NCBI GenBank assembly: GCA_937926105.1
Contig: CALANS010000028.1
Span: forward strand, 124,001-188,000
Reading direction: 5' to 3'
Length of the DNA stretch: 64,000 nucleotides
DNA from: an uncultured Actinomycetes bacterium
Lineage (GTDB): Bacteria; Actinomycetota; Actinomycetes; Mycobacteriales; Nakamurellaceae
Shown: in pieces, positions 49,966 to 55,278 of the stretch
Numbering within the stretch: the first letter of the stretch is position 1
Layout of the letters: every line of letters starts with the position of its first letter
Program-made: the position numbers and the translations under genes
Notes under the pieces: model-generated
Databases searched by the model: none
What the model was told of the DNA's origin: nothing
What the model saw: only the letters and a program-made list of their open reading frames with translations

Positions 49966-51603
49966 TCACTGTCTGCTGATGGTGGTGAGCAGATCGGGGA
50001 GGTGGAAGTGTGTGTTGCGGCGAGGTTTTCGTGTCGGGTCGATGTGCGGGGGTGGGATGAACCGGGGCCGTCCACCGCCTGGGTCGGGGTCGACGCGCCA
50101 TCGGCCTTGGTGGATCAGCACGTGATGCCGTCGGCACAGCAGGACTCCGTTGCTGATATCGGTGGCGCCGCCGTGGGACCACCAGATGAGGTGGTGGACC
50201 TCGCACCACGCCGGTGGAATGTCGCAGCCGGGGAAGGCGCATCCCTTGTCCCGGGTGGTGACGGCGCGGCGCTGCGCCGCGGTGAACAGTCGCATCGCAC
50301 GGCCCTGGTCCAGCACCACCGACTCGCCGCCCAGGACCTGCGGAATGATCGCCGCGTCACAGGCCAGTAGCCGGGCGGTGGCGGGGTCGGTGACCCCGCC
50401 GTAGTCGAACCAGCCGCACCCGCGGCGCGATCCGGAACCCGAACCCGAACCCGAGCCGGTGCTGGGGCCCGAGCCGCCGCGTGCTGGGGTACCGGAGTTG
50501 CCCGCGCAGTCGGCGCCCTGGCCGGGCCGGCCGGCGCGGGGGTGGGGACGGGTGTGGATGGTGGGGTGGCCGAGTAGGTCGTCCAAGCCGATGGTGACAA
50601 CCACCTGCGGGCGAACGCCGCCGTCTTTCGGCCCGGCTCCAGCGGTGAGGTAGCGGTGCAGGATTTCGGCGAACGCGTGTGCGCGACGCAGCGGCGCCGG
50701 CCGCGGGCCCGGGGTGTTCTCGTCGAGGGGTTTCGGCGTGGATAGCGCCTCGATCGCGACCTGGAGGTGTTCGGCGGTCAGCGGGTCTGCCAACCCGCGG
50801 TACGGGGTCAGCCCGTCCCGGCGGCGCCGGCCGATGTGGAGCTCGGCCCGGTCTGCGGCGTCTTTGCCGGTCAGGGTGCCGTCCGGGTCTACTCGTAGCA
50901 GGATTTGGTCGGCGACCTGGCGTAGCCCGTTCGCGTCTCGCATTCGTGCCTGCTCGTGCAGGGCCGCCTGGCAGGCAGCCCTGGTGTGTTGGTCGACCTC
51001 GGCTGGGACCTTGGCCCAGCAGTCGGTGATCACCTTGGCGTGTCGGTCGGAGAAGGCGCCGGCATCGACGCCGCGCAGCAGCTCCGGCATGGCGGGCGGA
51101 ATCGTGACGCCGCTGAGGTTGTCCCGGGGCAGGGACGCCTGGGCGGCGGCGACCCTGGCCCGGGCGTCGGCGATGGTGAGGTTCAGGGCGTCGTGTAGCA
51201 GGTGCGCCGCCGACCGGGCATCGAGCATGCCGGCCAGGCCACGCTGATCGATTTCTCCGGCCAGTCGGACCTGTATCCCGTACCCGGTGCGCAGCGCGGC
51301 CTCGACCTGACGGGCCAGGCCAAGCAGATCCGCCTGGCCCAGCGCCCACAGCGGCAGGCCGCGCAGGTCGGCGAGCGCGGTGCTGATGGCGCAGACCCGG
51401 TCTCGGGCCGCGGTCAGGGCCGCGGACACGGCGGCGGGATCGTCCGCGGACACCGTGCCGGACACGTCCACCCCGGTGCCCCGGCTGGGGTGGGACATGC
51501 CCGCGCACCGGTCGGCATCCACCGCCGTAACGACGCCCACCCCGCCGGCGTCGTCACCGATCAGCCGACCCGCGCTGCTGGATGGCTGCTCCAATCCACT
51601 CAT
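49966..51603 (-). CDS. DUF222/HNH endonuclease domain protein
   Basis: A 545-residue protein of the family known in mycobacteria as the 13E12 repeat family, present in many copies in actinomycetes. DUF222 occupies about residues 75-330 (ARDRVCAISTALADLRGLPLWALG to ADPLTAEHLQVAIEAL). A Gly/Ser low-complexity linker (about 375-400) precedes the HNH nuclease part with GCAFPGCDIPPAWCEVHHLIWWSHGGATDISNGVLLCRRHHVLIH, which has the Cys pairs and HH/N/H residues intact. Biological role unsettled. ATG 51603 sits 7 bases after a TACAGT box, fitting a leaderless start. Confidence 0.9.
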   Translation of the reverse strand: MSGLEQPSSSAGRLIGDDAGGVGVVTAVDADRCAGMSHPSRGTGVDVSGTVSADDPAAVSAALTAARDRVCAISTALADLRGLPLWALGQADLLGLARQVEAALRTGYGIQVRLAGEIDQRGLAGMLDARSAAHLLHDALNLTIADARARVAAAQASLPRDNLSGVTIPPAMPELLRGVDAGAFSDRHAKVITDCWAKVPAEVDQHTRAACQAALHEQARMRDANGLRQVADQILLRVDPDGTLTGKDAADRAELHIGRRRRDGLTPYRGLADPLTAEHLQVAIEALSTPKPLDENTPGPRPAPLRRAHAFAEILHRYLTAGAGPKDGGVRPQVVVTIGLDDLLGHPTIHTRPHPRAGRPGQGADCAGNSGTPARGGSGPSTGSGSGSGSGSRRGCGWFDYGGVTDPATARLLACDAAIIPQVLGGESVVLDQGRAMRLFTAAQRRAVTTRDKGCAFPGCDIPPAWCEVHHLIWWSHGGATDISNGVLLCRRHHVLIHQGRWRVDPDPGGGRPRFIPPPHIDPTRKPRRNTHFHLPDLLTTISRQ

Positions 51604-51728
51604 ACCGACGACTGTACGATGAAGGTACGACAGTCAGGTCCAGATCCGGGCTGTGCACTTGGCCCGGCTGGCCCAGCGGCCGTGCGACGCGGCTCGCACC
51701 GACCGTCATCCGCAGGCAAGATCGGAAT
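51604..51728. promoter_or_regulatory. Divergent promoter region of HNH and MOSC genes
   Basis: On the minus strand TACAGT (51611-51616) lies 7 bases before the HNH ATG. On the plus strand TACGAT (51615-51620) is a possible -10 box for the MOSC gene. The two boxes overlap within an imperfect palindrome (GACTGTAC ... GTACGACAGTC). Confidence 0.4.
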
Positions 51729-52328
51729 ATGAGTCCTCGGGTGCTCGCGGTCAGTCGCGACGGAATCCATCGCTTCAGCAAGACTCCCCGTGCCGCGATC
51801 GGGCTCGTCGAAGGCATGGGCGTGGCCGGCGATGCGCACGCCGGAACCCTGGTGCAGCACCGCTCGCGGGTCCGTCGTGACCCCAACCAGCCGAACCTGC
51901 GTCAGGTCCACCTGTTGCAGGCCGACCTGCTCGACGAAGCCCGTGCCGCCGGGCACCAGGTCGGTCCCGGCGGGCTCGGGGAGAACATTCTCACCGCGGA
52001 GCTGGATCTGCTCTCGCTGCCGACCGACACCCGGCTTCGCATCGGCGAGGCGGTCGTCCGGATCACCGGGCTGCGCAACCCCTGTCGGCAGATCGACGAC
52101 TTCTCGGCCGGCCTGCTCAGGCTCGTGGTGGCTCGCGTCGATGGCCGCCCCTCGGGCTCGGCGGTCACTCTCGGCCCGACCGGGGGAGCGGAGTCGATTG
52201 ACGGGGTCGGCATCGTGCGTCGGGCCGGGGTCATGGCGGTGGTCGAACGCGGCGGCGAGGTCCGGCCGGGCATGGCCATCGACGTGGACCTGCCCGACCC
52301 CCCGCACCGCCCCCTGACGCCGGTGTAG
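51729..52328 (+). CDS. MOSC domain protein
   Basis: A 199-residue single-domain MOSC protein. Family segments: GVAGDAHAG, RQVHLLQADLLDE, VGPGGLGENILT, RIGEAVVRITGLRNPCRQIDDF with the conserved Cys in the NPC motif, and GVMAVVERGGEVRPGM. MOSC domains handle molybdenum-cofactor-bound sulfur; stand-alone members resemble YiiM, which reduces N-hydroxylated compounds. ATG 51729 has a weak ribosome binding site; earlier in-frame starts exist but the family similarity begins here. Independent of the downstream AspRS gene, which has its own promoter. Confidence 0.9.
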   Translation: MSPRVLAVSRDGIHRFSKTPRAAIGLVEGMGVAGDAHAGTLVQHRSRVRRDPNQPNLRQVHLLQADLLDEARAAGHQVGPGGLGENILTAELDLLSLPTDTRLRIGEAVVRITGLRNPCRQIDDFSAGLLRLVVARVDGRPSGSAVTLGPTGGAESIDGVGIVRRAGVMAVVERGGEVRPGMAIDVDLPDPPHRPLTPV

Positions 52329-52633
52329 GGCACGACGGCTGCCGGATGTCACGACGGAGCGCGGCAGATCCGATCGACCCGCCGTCGCCCATCCGGCCCA
52401 CGTCGCTCGCCGCGCGGAAATACCGTTGACGGCCAGGGGGCCCCACGGTCTAGCCTCGGCCCCGACAGCCGTCGAGGACTGACGACCCTCGGGCCGCGCG
52501 GGATTCGGCCCGGCAGGCGGCCGTCCGCGCGTCACGGCGTACCGACGAGAGGCCGATCAGTCGGCAAAGGTGTGGTGGCACAGCGACTTGGCCCCCGCCC
52601 ACACCTCCAGGGCTCCCGCCGCCTGGAGGAACG
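52329..52633 (+). other. Intergenic region holding the AspRS promoter and T-box leader
   Basis: No gene is supported. TTGACG (52426-52431) and TAGCCT (52451-52456), 19 bases apart, form a plausible promoter with transcription start near 52463. The remaining about 170 bases are a structured leader described separately. Confidence 0.6.
52463..52633 (+). ncRNA. Candidate translational T-box leader of the AspRS gene
   Basis: A probable stem III (GCCGA/TCGGC, 52552-52565) is followed after two bases by an antisequestrator: arm AGGTGTGG (52568-52575), 7-base bulge TGGCACA (52576-52582), inner helix GCG/CGC (52583-52585 with 52596-52598), closing arm CCACACCT (52599-52606). The bulge starts TGGC, complementary to the GCCA end expected of uncharged tRNA-Asp or tRNA-Asn (discriminator G). 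CCTCCAGG (52604-52611) can instead pair with CCTGGAGG (52622-52629), hiding the ribosome binding site; the two folds share bases 52604-52606 and exclude each other. A 6-bp hairpin at 52472-52492 shows two GAC triplets in its loop, candidates for the Asp specifier, but stem I is not securely resolved. Confidence 0.72.
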
Positions 52634-53962
52634 ATGAGACCACCCACCTCACCCGCAGTGACACCTGCCCGCACCCTGGCCGCCGACCTGGCCACCACCG
52701 CACCCGGAACGCCGGTGACCCTGATGGGCCACGTCCATCGCCGGCGCGAACTGTCCTCGGTGGCGTTCGTGATCCTGCGCGACCGATCCGGGCTGGCCCA
52801 AATAGTGCTACACCCAGAAGAGGTGCCGCCCGGAGGCCTGCCGCCGGAGGAGACCGCCGTCCGGATTACCGGTGTCGCCGCCCGGAACGTCCAGGCGCCC
52901 GGTGGCTTCGAGCTCGTGACGCCGACCATATCGGCTCTGACCGAACCCGCGCACACCCCACCGGTCGAGCTGTGGCGCCCCACCCTGCCGGCGAGCCTGC
53001 CGACGCTGCTGGACCATGCCCCGGTCGCCTGGCGGCACCCGAGGCAACGCGCCCACTGGGAACTGGCGGCGGCCAGCCTCCGCGGCTTCCGGAGCGCCCT
53101 GAACGCAGCAGGGTTTACCGAGGTGTGCACTCCGAAACTTGTTGCCTCGGCGACGGAGTCGGGCGCGAACGTGTTTCCGGTGGACTACTTCGGCCGGCCC
53201 GCCTACCTTGCCCAGAGCCCGCAGTTCTACAAGCAGCAGCTGGTCGGGGTCTTCGAGCGGGTCTACGAGGTGGGGCCGGTGTTCCGCGCCGAGCCGCACG
53301 ACACCGCCCGCCATATGGCCGAGTATGTCTCGCTGGACGTCGAACTCGGCTTCGTGCACGACCACCGGGACGTGCTGGCCGTGCTGCGTGACGTGCTTGC
53401 CGGGATGCTCGCCGGCATCGCCGGACACGCGGCGGACGCCCTGGACCGGCTCGGCATCACGCTACCCACGATTCCCGACCAGATACCGGTTGTCCACTTC
53501 GCCGAGGCTCTGGCGTTGGTGGGCGCACCGGCCGACGCCGCGGACCTCGCACCGGACCACGAACGTGCCCTCGGCATCTGGGCCCAGGACACATTCGGCG
53601 CCGAGGTGCTGGCCGTCGAGGGATATCCGCTGCGCAAGCGGCCCTTCTACACGCACGGGTGGACTGGCCGACCGATCGACGGTGGACCGTGGACCAATAG
53701 CTTCGACGTGATCTTCCGAGGCCTGGAATTGGTCACGGGCGGGCAGCGGCTGCACCGGTACGCCGACTACGTCGCCGCCATCCGGTCCCGCGGGGAGGCC
53801 CCGGAAACGTATGCGCCGTACCTGCAAGCGTTCCGGCACGGTATGCCGCCGCACGGTGGCTTTGCCATTGGCCTGGAGCGCTGGGTCGCCCGGCTGGTCG
53901 ACGCTGCGAACATTCGCGAGGTGACGCTGTTCCCGCGGGACCTGCACCGGCTCTCCCCGTGA
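52634..53962 (+). CDS. aspS: Archaeal-type aspartyl-tRNA synthetase (aspartate--tRNA(Asp/Asn) ligase)
   Basis: A 442-residue class IIb synthetase of the compact archaeal type. N-terminal anticodon-binding OB fold (about 15-115, TLMGHVHRRRELSSVAFVILRD), then the catalytic core: PKLVASATESGANVFPVDYFG, AQSPQFYKQQLV, motif 2 VYEVGPVFRAEPHDTARHMAEYVSLDVE, and motif 3 GFAIGLERWVARL, ending LFPRDLHRLSP. It lacks the GAD insertion of ordinary bacterial AspRS, so it is probably non-discriminating or a second AspRS; whether a bacterial-type copy exists elsewhere cannot be seen here. The start is fixed by GGAGGA four bases upstream, which is also the sequestered part of the T-box leader. Confidence 0.93.
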   Translation: MRPPTSPAVTPARTLAADLATTAPGTPVTLMGHVHRRRELSSVAFVILRDRSGLAQIVLHPEEVPPGGLPPEETAVRITGVAARNVQAPGGFELVTPTISALTEPAHTPPVELWRPTLPASLPTLLDHAPVAWRHPRQRAHWELAAASLRGFRSALNAAGFTEVCTPKLVASATESGANVFPVDYFGRPAYLAQSPQFYKQQLVGVFERVYEVGPVFRAEPHDTARHMAEYVSLDVELGFVHDHRDVLAVLRDVLAGMLAGIAGHAADALDRLGITLPTIPDQIPVVHFAEALALVGAPADAADLAPDHERALGIWAQDTFGAEVLAVEGYPLRKRPFYTHGWTGRPIDGGPWTNSFDVIFRGLELVTGGQRLHRYADYVAAIRSRGEAPETYAPYLQAFRHGMPPHGGFAIGLERWVARLVDAANIREVTLFPRDLHRLSP

Positions 53963-54030: not shown

Positions 54031-55278
54031 TCACACTCCTAGACATCCGATCGGGATGACGTGGACGCCGTCTGCACGGAGGCCGCCGGTGCCCGTGCTG
54101 GTAATGACACCGAGGCAGGCGGGTTCACCATGGCGTGTCTTGTCGACATTGGCGCTGAACTTCAGCAGGGCGGCCGCGCCGTTGTCAACATGACGGGGAT
54201 TGAGTTTGACCTCGAAGGCGGCCCACTTGTTGTCGTTGATCGAGACGACTGCGTCTACTTCGTTGCCGTTGCTGTCCCGCCAGGAGTCGACGGTACCGCG
54301 ATGCGGCTGAGCGAGGATTCTGAGATCACGAATGACGAGAGCTTCGAAGTGGTACCCCGTGGCGCGCGGATCAGCTCGTAACTCGGCACTGCCAATGCCG
54401 AGTGACGCGGGACCCAGTGAGGGATCGACGAAGTAGCGAGCCTCTGCGGTGCGAAGCGGGGTCTTGGAGCGCATGTGCGGTCGCCATGCCGCGGAGTTGT
54501 CAGTGAGGCGAAGCCGCTCCATAGTGTCGAGATAGCTGCCAATTGTCTCGGCCGAGAGCGACCGCGAATCGCCGGCGACGTCTTTTGCAAGCTCGGTCTG
54601 CTTCACGGCTTGGCCGACGTTGCGCGCCAGCGAAGCGAACAGGCGCCTCAAGTTGCGCGGGTTGCGGCGGTGTCCCATCGCGGGCATGTCGACCTCGATG
54701 ACTTGATCGAGGTACCCCTGGAGCCAGTCGCGGGCAGCGTCTTCGGGCCAGTCGGTAATCTCTGGCCAGCCTCCGATAACGATTCGCCGGAGCAGTTCGT
54801 CGAAGGTCAGATGGGTTCCGAGACCGGTTTGCCTTTCTCCGGCCAACAGCGCGGCGAAGGACATCTCGCCATTGGAGTGGCCGCTCTCGTAAAGGCTCAT
54901 AGGTCGCATCTGGAGCGTCCCGAATCGTCCCGCACCCGAGTGACGGCTGGCGTCGTCGCGGGGCCGGGCCGATCCGGTGAGGATGAAGTTGCCCATGGAA
55001 CGGTGATCGTCGACTTCACGACGGATGCGATTCCAGATCGTCGGTTCGAGCTGCCACTCGTCGAAGAGGATGGGAGGCTCGCCGGCGAACAGTGCGTCAG
55101 GGTCGAGCACAACCTGGGATCGGGCGGCGTCATCGGCGTCGAAGCGGATGATCGTTCGAGCGACCTGGGACGAGGTCTCGGTCTTGCCGCATGCCTTCGG
55201 CCCTTCGATGAGCACTGCGCCGTGAGCACGGCGCAGGCGGGTGAGCTCGCTGTCGGCGATGCGGGGACGGTAGACCAT
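54031..55278 (-). CDS. AAA ATPase with DUF4143
   Basis: A 415-residue ATPase of the AAA_14/DUF4143 type. N-terminal P-loop AVLIEGPKACGKTETS, Walker B ILFDEWQLEP, FILTGSA (sensor), MSLYESG, then the DUF4143 half with RRLFASLARNVGQ, SYLDTMERL, RYFVDPSLGPASLG, GYHFEALVIRDLRI and a nuclease-like EVDAVVSINDNKWAAFEVKL. These proteins are of unknown role, common in accessory DNA, and often suspected in defence or toxin-type systems. Base composition is visibly less GC-rich than the neighbours, suggesting transfer. TAGGCT lies six bases before the ATG and no ribosome binding site is seen, so it is probably leaderless. Confidence 0.9.
   Translation of the reverse strand: MVYRPRIADSELTRLRRAHGAVLIEGPKACGKTETSSQVARTIIRFDADDAARSQVVLDPDALFAGEPPILFDEWQLEPTIWNRIRREVDDHRSMGNFILTGSARPRDDASRHSGAGRFGTLQMRPMSLYESGHSNGEMSFAALLAGERQTGLGTHLTFDELLRRIVIGGWPEITDWPEDAARDWLQGYLDQVIEVDMPAMGHRRNPRNLRRLFASLARNVGQAVKQTELAKDVAGDSRSLSAETIGSYLDTMERLRLTDNSAAWRPHMRSKTPLRTAEARYFVDPSLGPASLGIGSAELRADPRATGYHFEALVIRDLRILAQPHRGTVDSWRDSNGNEVDAVVSINDNKWAAFEVKLNPRHVDNGAAALLKFSANVDKTRHGEPACLGVITSTGTGGLRADGVHVIPIGCLGV

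Follow-up and report, generated by a model that had tools for sequence, protein, structure and literature searches.

A probable translational T-box riboswitch for tRNA-Asp upstream of archaeal-type aspartyl-tRNA synthetase genes in Actinobacteria

Does the leader of the archaeal-type aspartyl-tRNA synthetase (AspRS) gene, aspS, in this locus carry a T-box, and which tRNA would it bind? The first-pass annotation of the window (the whole stretch of 64,000 nucleotides that was analysed) had proposed a translational T-box riboswitch whose parts were Stem III, an antisequestrator bearing a T-box bulge, and a hairpin that competes with it and covers the ribosome binding site. Our comparison of sequences indicates that the leader is very probably a T-box riboswitch that acts on translation and is specific for tRNA-Asp. 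It is one member of a conserved family, which mostly stands on a second AspRS copy.

Elements of the window leader

The AspRS gene occupies 52634..53962 of the forward strand, with its ATG at 52634, and encodes 442 amino acids. Its best enzyme model, NF003483 (aspartate--tRNA(Asn) ligase), scored 497.7 bits (cut-off 353). All of the elements named above were found in the sequence before it, on the same strand. Stem III (GCCGA/TCGGC) lies at 52552..52565, with strands 52552-52556 and 52561-52565, and the antisequestrator, seen in the sequence and the alignment, at 52568..52606. The latter consists of helix A1 (AGGTGTGG/CCACACCT, 52568-52575/52599-52606), the T-box bulge TGGCACA (52576..52582), whose TGGC complements the tRNA end GCCA, and helix A2 (GCG/CGC, 52583-52585/52596-52598). 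The sequestrator hairpin (CCTCCAGG/CCTGGAGG) spans 52604..52629, with strands 52604-52611 and 52622-52629, and the Shine-Dalgarno sequence GGAGG (52625..52629) is part of its 3′ strand. The antisequestrator and sequestrator states have only three bases in common, 52604-52606, which belong to A1 and to the sequestrator. Missing from the first description is an ultrashort Stem I, CGAGG-ACTGACGAC-CCTCG at 52473..52491, a hairpin that recurs in relatives and holds the predicted specifier GAC (Asp, 52481..52483), the complement of anticodon GTC. Its last base is the first base of a second hairpin (GGGCC/GGCCC, 52491..52511), which was recognized by eye and is variable among relatives.

The window sequence by itself does not lift the T-box above chance, because its folding energy was ordinary compared with shuffles (z = -0.25) and no T-box model of Rfam matched it, even at E 10. 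The pieces gave z = 0.36 for the antisequestrator and z = -1.43 for the sequestrator. Running T-box models on the window, a check named in the first-pass annotation, thus brought it no support, and comparison with relatives decides. The sole Rfam match at E 10 was htlv_FSE on the opposite strand (E = 0.14), which is the inverted repeat of the sequestrator hairpin.

Conservation, covariation and the tRNA ligand

As relatives we took the best 80 of 561 confirmed AspRS relatives from the genome collection. They come from Nocardioides, Microbacterium, Luteimicrobium, Oerskovia, Promicromonospora, Kribbella, Terrabacter, Kineosporia, Brachybacterium, Flexivirga, Nocardia and other genera; no relative of the window AspRS was found in viral contigs. 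The core AAGG(T/A)G(T/C)GGTGGCAC(A/C)GCGA precedes 79 of these 80 related AspRS genes and was found nowhere else on the + strand of the 680 kb of those loci. Together with the NF003483 score, it bears out that the proposed T-box stands upstream of the gene for an archaeal-type AspRS. The window and the 79 loci with the core make up the 80 leaders discussed below. The alignments were chosen subsets in which close relatives were thinned (A2, 50 rows; A3, 40; A4, 37; A5, 29). Such comparison of sequences shows the structure and how it is conserved, as well as the specifier, the link to AspRS genes and the two enzymes in relatives. Two leaders, those of Actinopolymorpha alba (L073) and Nocardioides pini (L048), retained the core and had a downstream part unlike that of the other leaders.

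Stem I forms in the 80 leaders in different sizes: 61, including the window, have the ultrashort form, 12 a long form, and seven fit neither parse. The ultrashort form presents a 9-nt loop, NN(T/C)GACNNN, in all 61; the long form contains GAAGACA in 12 of 12 and the fuller apical motif in nine of them; and TGAC occurs in six of the seven others. GAC is therefore present in 79 of the 80 leaders, and the base after it is G or A; only in the leader of A. alba was no recognizable GAC hairpin seen. In six leaders, the distance from the start of the loop to the core is only 54 nt. One exact pattern retrieved tRNA-Asp from five of nine relatives' genomes, and all five tRNAs have anticodon GTC and discriminator G, to which the C at the N position of the bulge is complementary. 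The earlier assignment of the leader to Asp, with GAC expected to be conserved before related aspS genes and the bulge C expected to face discriminator G, was therefore strengthened on each count.

AAC occurs as well in 13 of the 61 short loops, and the leader might be thought to bind tRNA-Asn. This would suit an enzyme whose best model is an aspartate--tRNA(Asn) ligase, and hosts in which AsnRS was not found in any of the 29 genomes searched (29/29), so that AspRS, judging from gene content, should also serve tRNA-Asn. We regard tRNA-Asn as an improbable ligand nevertheless, since GAC is found in nearly all leaders against AAC in only a minority of the short loops, and the window loop contains no AAC. 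The tRNA-Asp reading is followed below.

The bulge reads TGGCAC in all 80 leaders with the core, and its last base is C in 66 of them and A in 14. The departure of the window's TGGCACA from the canonical TGGNACC, pointed out in the first-pass annotation, is thus real, and it is a natural variant. Loss of the bulge in close relatives, which was to count against a T-box, was not seen; 79 of the 80 related loci keep it. The deviating bulge might also suggest that the T-box has decayed in the window lineage, with the bulge or the short helices no longer working and expression being constitutive or always low. This is quite unlikely, because the leaders with TGGCACA keep intact helices and because a covariance model built from 29 relatives without the window scored the window at 72.8 bits (E = 7e-14).

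Covariation argues strongly for the antisequestrator side of the structure. In 50 sequences, 99.4% of the cells of Stem III, A1 and A2 were paired; both-side changes affected seven pairs and 32 cells, and none of 500 shuffles scored as high on any of five measures. All five pairs of Stem III showed both-side changes. A1 was 100% paired, with both-side changes in two of its eight pairs and five pairs invariant (AGGAGTGG opposite CCGCTCCT in eight leaders is an example), and A2 was invariant. The purines flanking Stem III in the window, GAGAG before and AA after, fit the T-box motif RRRxG before and AA after that is given in the account of T-box structure in PMC7583486, and in the 50 sequences the flanking columns are either fully conserved or conserved to at least 90%. 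The sequestrator was paired in 93.0% of cells, against 34-65% when it was slid along the same 50 sequences. Its both-side changes amounted to three cells, which 91 of 500 shuffles matched. Thus the sequestrator, as far as the alignment tells, is conserved and hardly covarying, and is not proven by covariation. Of the covariation predicted for both exclusive helices, the part on the antisequestrator stood, whereas that on the sequestrator was nearly absent.

An ordinary structured leader that merely resembles a T-box, for example a hairpin at the ribosome site that responds to a protein or to a leader peptide, would explain why the single-sequence fold was no better than shuffles and why Rfam made no call. 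It is most improbable in view of the covariation, the RF00230 match in a Kribbella leader (L065, described below), a specifier and a bulge that complement the same tRNA, and the presence of this one element in front of two types of AspRS gene.

Two further parts of the putative T-box lie between its 5′ end and Stem III. A helix P0 would enclose Stem I and the second hairpin; in the window its strands, GCCG (52468..52471) and CGGC (52518..52521), were placed by eye. A free-register search for P0 in 51 leaders gave 688 against 608 in shuffles (sd 20; 0/200). With fixed registers in 37 leaders, the window not among them, 69.8% of cells were paired compared with 52.2% (sd 2.4; 0/300 shuffles). P0 is likely, not certain, because a second register, at shift 6, likewise exceeded every one of the 300 shuffles, with less pairing (49.1% against 41.8%). 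Just 5′ of Stem III is a conserved GC-rich block, CCGCGCGT..CGGCGTACCGACGAGAG (52525..52551), with many invariant columns in 37 leaders. It is possibly the place of a Stem IIA/B-like pseudoknot, for which its position is right. It gives no proof of one, since the suspected pairing columns do not vary in these leaders, and no S-turn was identified in it.

Readout at the ribosome site

The folding calculations were consistent with a leader that is closed by default. Without tRNA, the OFF fold beat the ON fold in 74 of the 77 parsed leaders, with a mean of 4.1 kcal/mol. The Shine-Dalgarno sequence of the window was closed in the free fold; when A1 and A2 were imposed, its last three bases became open and the GG of GGAGG stayed in a residual helix. 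Without tRNA, an alternative pairing inside A1 (-26.8 kcal/mol) was predicted for the window in place of the canonical A2 (-22.4 kcal/mol), with the OFF fold at -30.5 kcal/mol. The RNAalifold consensus of the 50 sequences likewise consisted of this shifted A1 pairing and the sequestrator. Both results agree with what an OFF state should look like, and neither demonstrates the ON state.

The terminal pair of A2 (52583-52598 in the window) is G-C in 50 of 50 sequences. A conserved terminal G-U wobble in A2 is described as the main sensor of the 3′-aminoacyl group in the treatment of charge sensing in PMC7583486. The terminal G-U of the glyQS-type steric sieve is thus absent here, and charge sensing may differ in the Asp T-box leaders because their A2 ends in G-C, not G-U.

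No TTTT was found within +60 to +115 of the core, that is, after the hairpin, in any of the 80 leaders, which speaks for translational control. The 3′ strand of the competing hairpin being the Shine-Dalgarno sequence, the translational mode proposed at first held up. A transcriptional T-box with this hairpin as terminator is scarcely credible: the long Stem I usual for transcriptional T-boxes does occur in 12 of the 80 leaders, but TTTT is missing from all of them, no terminator-like site was seen in the window region, and the hairpin closes on the Shine-Dalgarno sequence.

Transcription from downstream of 52570 would also have spoken against the T-box. A -10-like TAGCCT at 52451..52456 of the window predicts a start near 52463. 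The assignment rests on the pattern TANNNT in relatives, which occurs in 52 of the 61 leaders with a short Stem I, mostly 21-22 nt 5′ of the Stem I core, against 2 in 55 other positions. At this nearly fixed distance before Stem I, the transcript should start about where the riboswitch starts. The pattern thus points to a start near 52463, though a strict promoter scan gave no site.

Ribosome-site opening by uncharged tRNA-Asp is inferred from the anatomy of the leader and the known T-box mechanism, and the same holds for tRNA binding, charge sensing and the ON/OFF effect. By default, the Shine-Dalgarno sequence would be shut inside the sequestrator hairpin. Uncharged tRNA-Asp would pair through its anticodon GUC with the GAC in the loop of Stem I, and through its free GCCA end with the UGGC of the bulge, holding the antisequestrator. 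The antisequestrator would then take 52604-52606 from the sequestrator, the final three bases of the Shine-Dalgarno sequence, if not more, would open, and AspRS would be translated. Charged tRNA would be unable to hold the antisequestrator, and aspS would close again.

Genes under the T-box and its relation to known T-boxes

We surveyed two orders with the family model; in both surveys, some of the genomes had themselves contributed loci to the model. Among 147 genomes of the order of Nocardioides gansuensis, the T-box (E of 1e-5 or better) was found in 61 and archaeal-type AspRS in 59. All 59 archaeal-type genes lie directly downstream of a T-box on the same strand, at 24-148 nt in 58 cases and at 441 nt in the remaining one, for which the match to the enzyme is truncated. 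Among 297 genomes of the order of Microbacterium oxydans, the T-box was found in 19 (20 matches) and the enzyme in 14 (15 genes), and each of the 15 archaeal-type genes stands behind a T-box by coordinates. Across both surveys, all 81 model matches precede an AspRS gene, 74 of the archaeal type and seven of the bacterial type. In three of the seven genomes with a T-box on the bacterial type, this was the only AspRS found. These seven loci (L081, L095, L096, L107, L108, L109 and L110) have another Shine-Dalgarno sequence, AAAGG or AGAGG, which lies further downstream; as judged by eye, CCTCC(C/A)GGG can stand opposite it across a longer loop.

Most hosts of a T-box on the archaeal-type gene also encode the other enzyme. 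A bacterial-type AspRS scored above cut-off in 64 of the 66 such genomes searched (25/25 and 39/41), one of the 64, the genome of L055, having only a piece at a contig end. This check covered 26 and 41 loci, with L032 and L058 left out; L009, L020, L025, L027, L033, L052, L059, L061, L062, L069 and L078 lay outside it. The bacterial-type enzyme was not found in a metagenome assembly (L008) or in Intrasporangium flavum (L066), both of which keep the T-box. Thus, a lone archaeal-type gene can retain its T-box, as in I. flavum. In Nocardioides litoris (L050), the one relative without the T-box, a bacterial-type AspRS was not found either, and this single coincidence of T-box loss and absence of the bacterial enzyme is suggestive at most. 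We assume a second, bacterial-type AspRS in the organism of the window.

The upstream neighbour of aspS in the window (51582-52328, +) has a partial, weak MOSC-domain match (42 bits against a cut-off of 457), and the 415-aa protein adjoining aspS on the other side (54031-55278, -) has no NCBIfam match. Neither was found beside aspS in the 80 relatives. Of the four neighbour proteins of the window tested in the 80 related loci, one was found beside aspS, in one locus, and no conserved operon partner of aspS was seen.

As the controlled archaeal-type enzyme mostly sits beside a bacterial-type one, the switch in most relatives would answer a shortage of charged tRNA-Asp by making a second AspRS. 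T-box control of the extra copy is in keeping with an inducible spare enzyme. PMC4206432 reports extra AspRS genes in 15 genera beyond Deinococcus-Thermus, of which ten, primarily Actinomycetales, lack AsnRS, and does not settle what the extra genes are for; an Asp T-box would give a testable reason for two AspRS enzymes. The enzyme is the same as that of the present genes, and the sections of that paper on the extra archaeal-type AspRS of bacteria mention no T-box for the actinobacterial copies. We offer as a tentative reading, somewhat short of probable, that the archaeal-type AspRS of many Actinobacteria is a silent spare under the Asp T-box, switched on only by tRNA-Asp that remains uncharged, whether for want of aspartate or because the housekeeping AspRS is inhibited or failing. 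In the same tentative reading, the switch would be a portable unit found in front of two unrelated types of AspRS, and its Stem I would have shifted, within one riboswitch family, between the canonical long form and an ultrashort form inside a P0 junction. Self-resistance to an AspRS inhibitor, on which nothing specific was found in the literature searched, belongs to this tentative reading only.

The relation to RF00230 was seen most clearly in the Kribbella leader L065, which matched over the whole model with 56.0 bits (E = 1.2e-11 for 461 bases) against a cut-off of 93. The long Stem I with GAAGACA, present in 12 of the 80 leaders, is a further likeness. The family differs from RF00230 in scoring under 93, in having no terminator and in the G-C end of A2. 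Neither the window nor any of 15 loci reached the gathering cut-off, and of these 15 loci without a T-box match, 13 carry TGGCACC. The first-pass annotation had supposed that TGGCACA might be the reason why searches missed the element; this does not hold, since the Rfam cut-off misses TGGCACC loci too. A conserved Asp family would mean that the curated cut-off passes over a clear T-box family. A separate Rfam match near aspS of Nocardioides gansuensis (L001, 6633-6700), the ASdes sRNA at 80.8 bits, is unrelated to the T-box.

Extra synthetase genes under T-boxes are familiar from Firmicutes, where thrZ of Bacillus subtilis is one and the T-boxes on such genes are transcriptional. The present hosts are Actinobacteria, and the readout would be the ribosome site. 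The legend of a figure in PMC2494555 places one of three aspS genes of Clostridium acetobutylicum under a T-box, which is alike in that one synthetase copy is controlled. The nearest counterparts are the translational (class II) T-boxes before ileS of Actinobacteria, which, in the descriptions of them in PMC1262725 and PMC7583486, share the short Stem I with an apical specifier loop, Stem III, the antisequestrator and the hairpin over the Shine-Dalgarno sequence. They differ in specifier and target, Ile and IleRS there against Asp (GAC) and AspRS here, and in the P0 that is suggested around Stem I here.

The T-boxes of Actinobacteria reported in the pertinent part of PMC1262725 stand before ileS, and the count for the phylum in PMC2494555 is 32 T-boxes in 12 of 19 genomes, most of them in Symbiobacterium. 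Translational T-boxes are described in PMC7583486, PMC10651847 and PMC7778990, the sections of which on this subject contain no actinobacterial Asp class. An actinobacterial Asp T-box was not found in the literature searched, which did not extend to the TBDB tables or Sherwood 2015. Asp T-boxes as such are known, since TBDB counts Asp specifiers, of which 94% are GAC. The claim of a new class therefore survived in a narrower form: an Asp-specific translational T-box of Actinobacteria is new against the literature searched, and the database may hold members that have gone unremarked. Against that literature, a conserved Asp family would widen the actinobacterial translational T-box class beyond ileS. 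With one discriminator, specifier and target combined with long, ultrashort and very compact forms of Stem I, it can also be asked what the minimal RNA for catching a tRNA is.

One genome (G702) has two archaeal-type aspS genes (L111 and L112), each with its own T-box, and one of the copies contains an internal TAG. A survey of the phylum with the family model gave 14 matches in 12 of 396 genomes. Three were strong and all of these precede AspRS genes; of the 11 weak ones, two passed the RF00230 cut-off and eight contain TGG(N)ACCGCG. The family model therefore detects other T-boxes too, which speaks for the T-box nature of the family. Five weak matches in small actinobacterial genomes (L084, L085, L086, L093 and L094) carry TGGTACCGCG and fall below the Rfam cut-off; they are possibly overlooked T-boxes.
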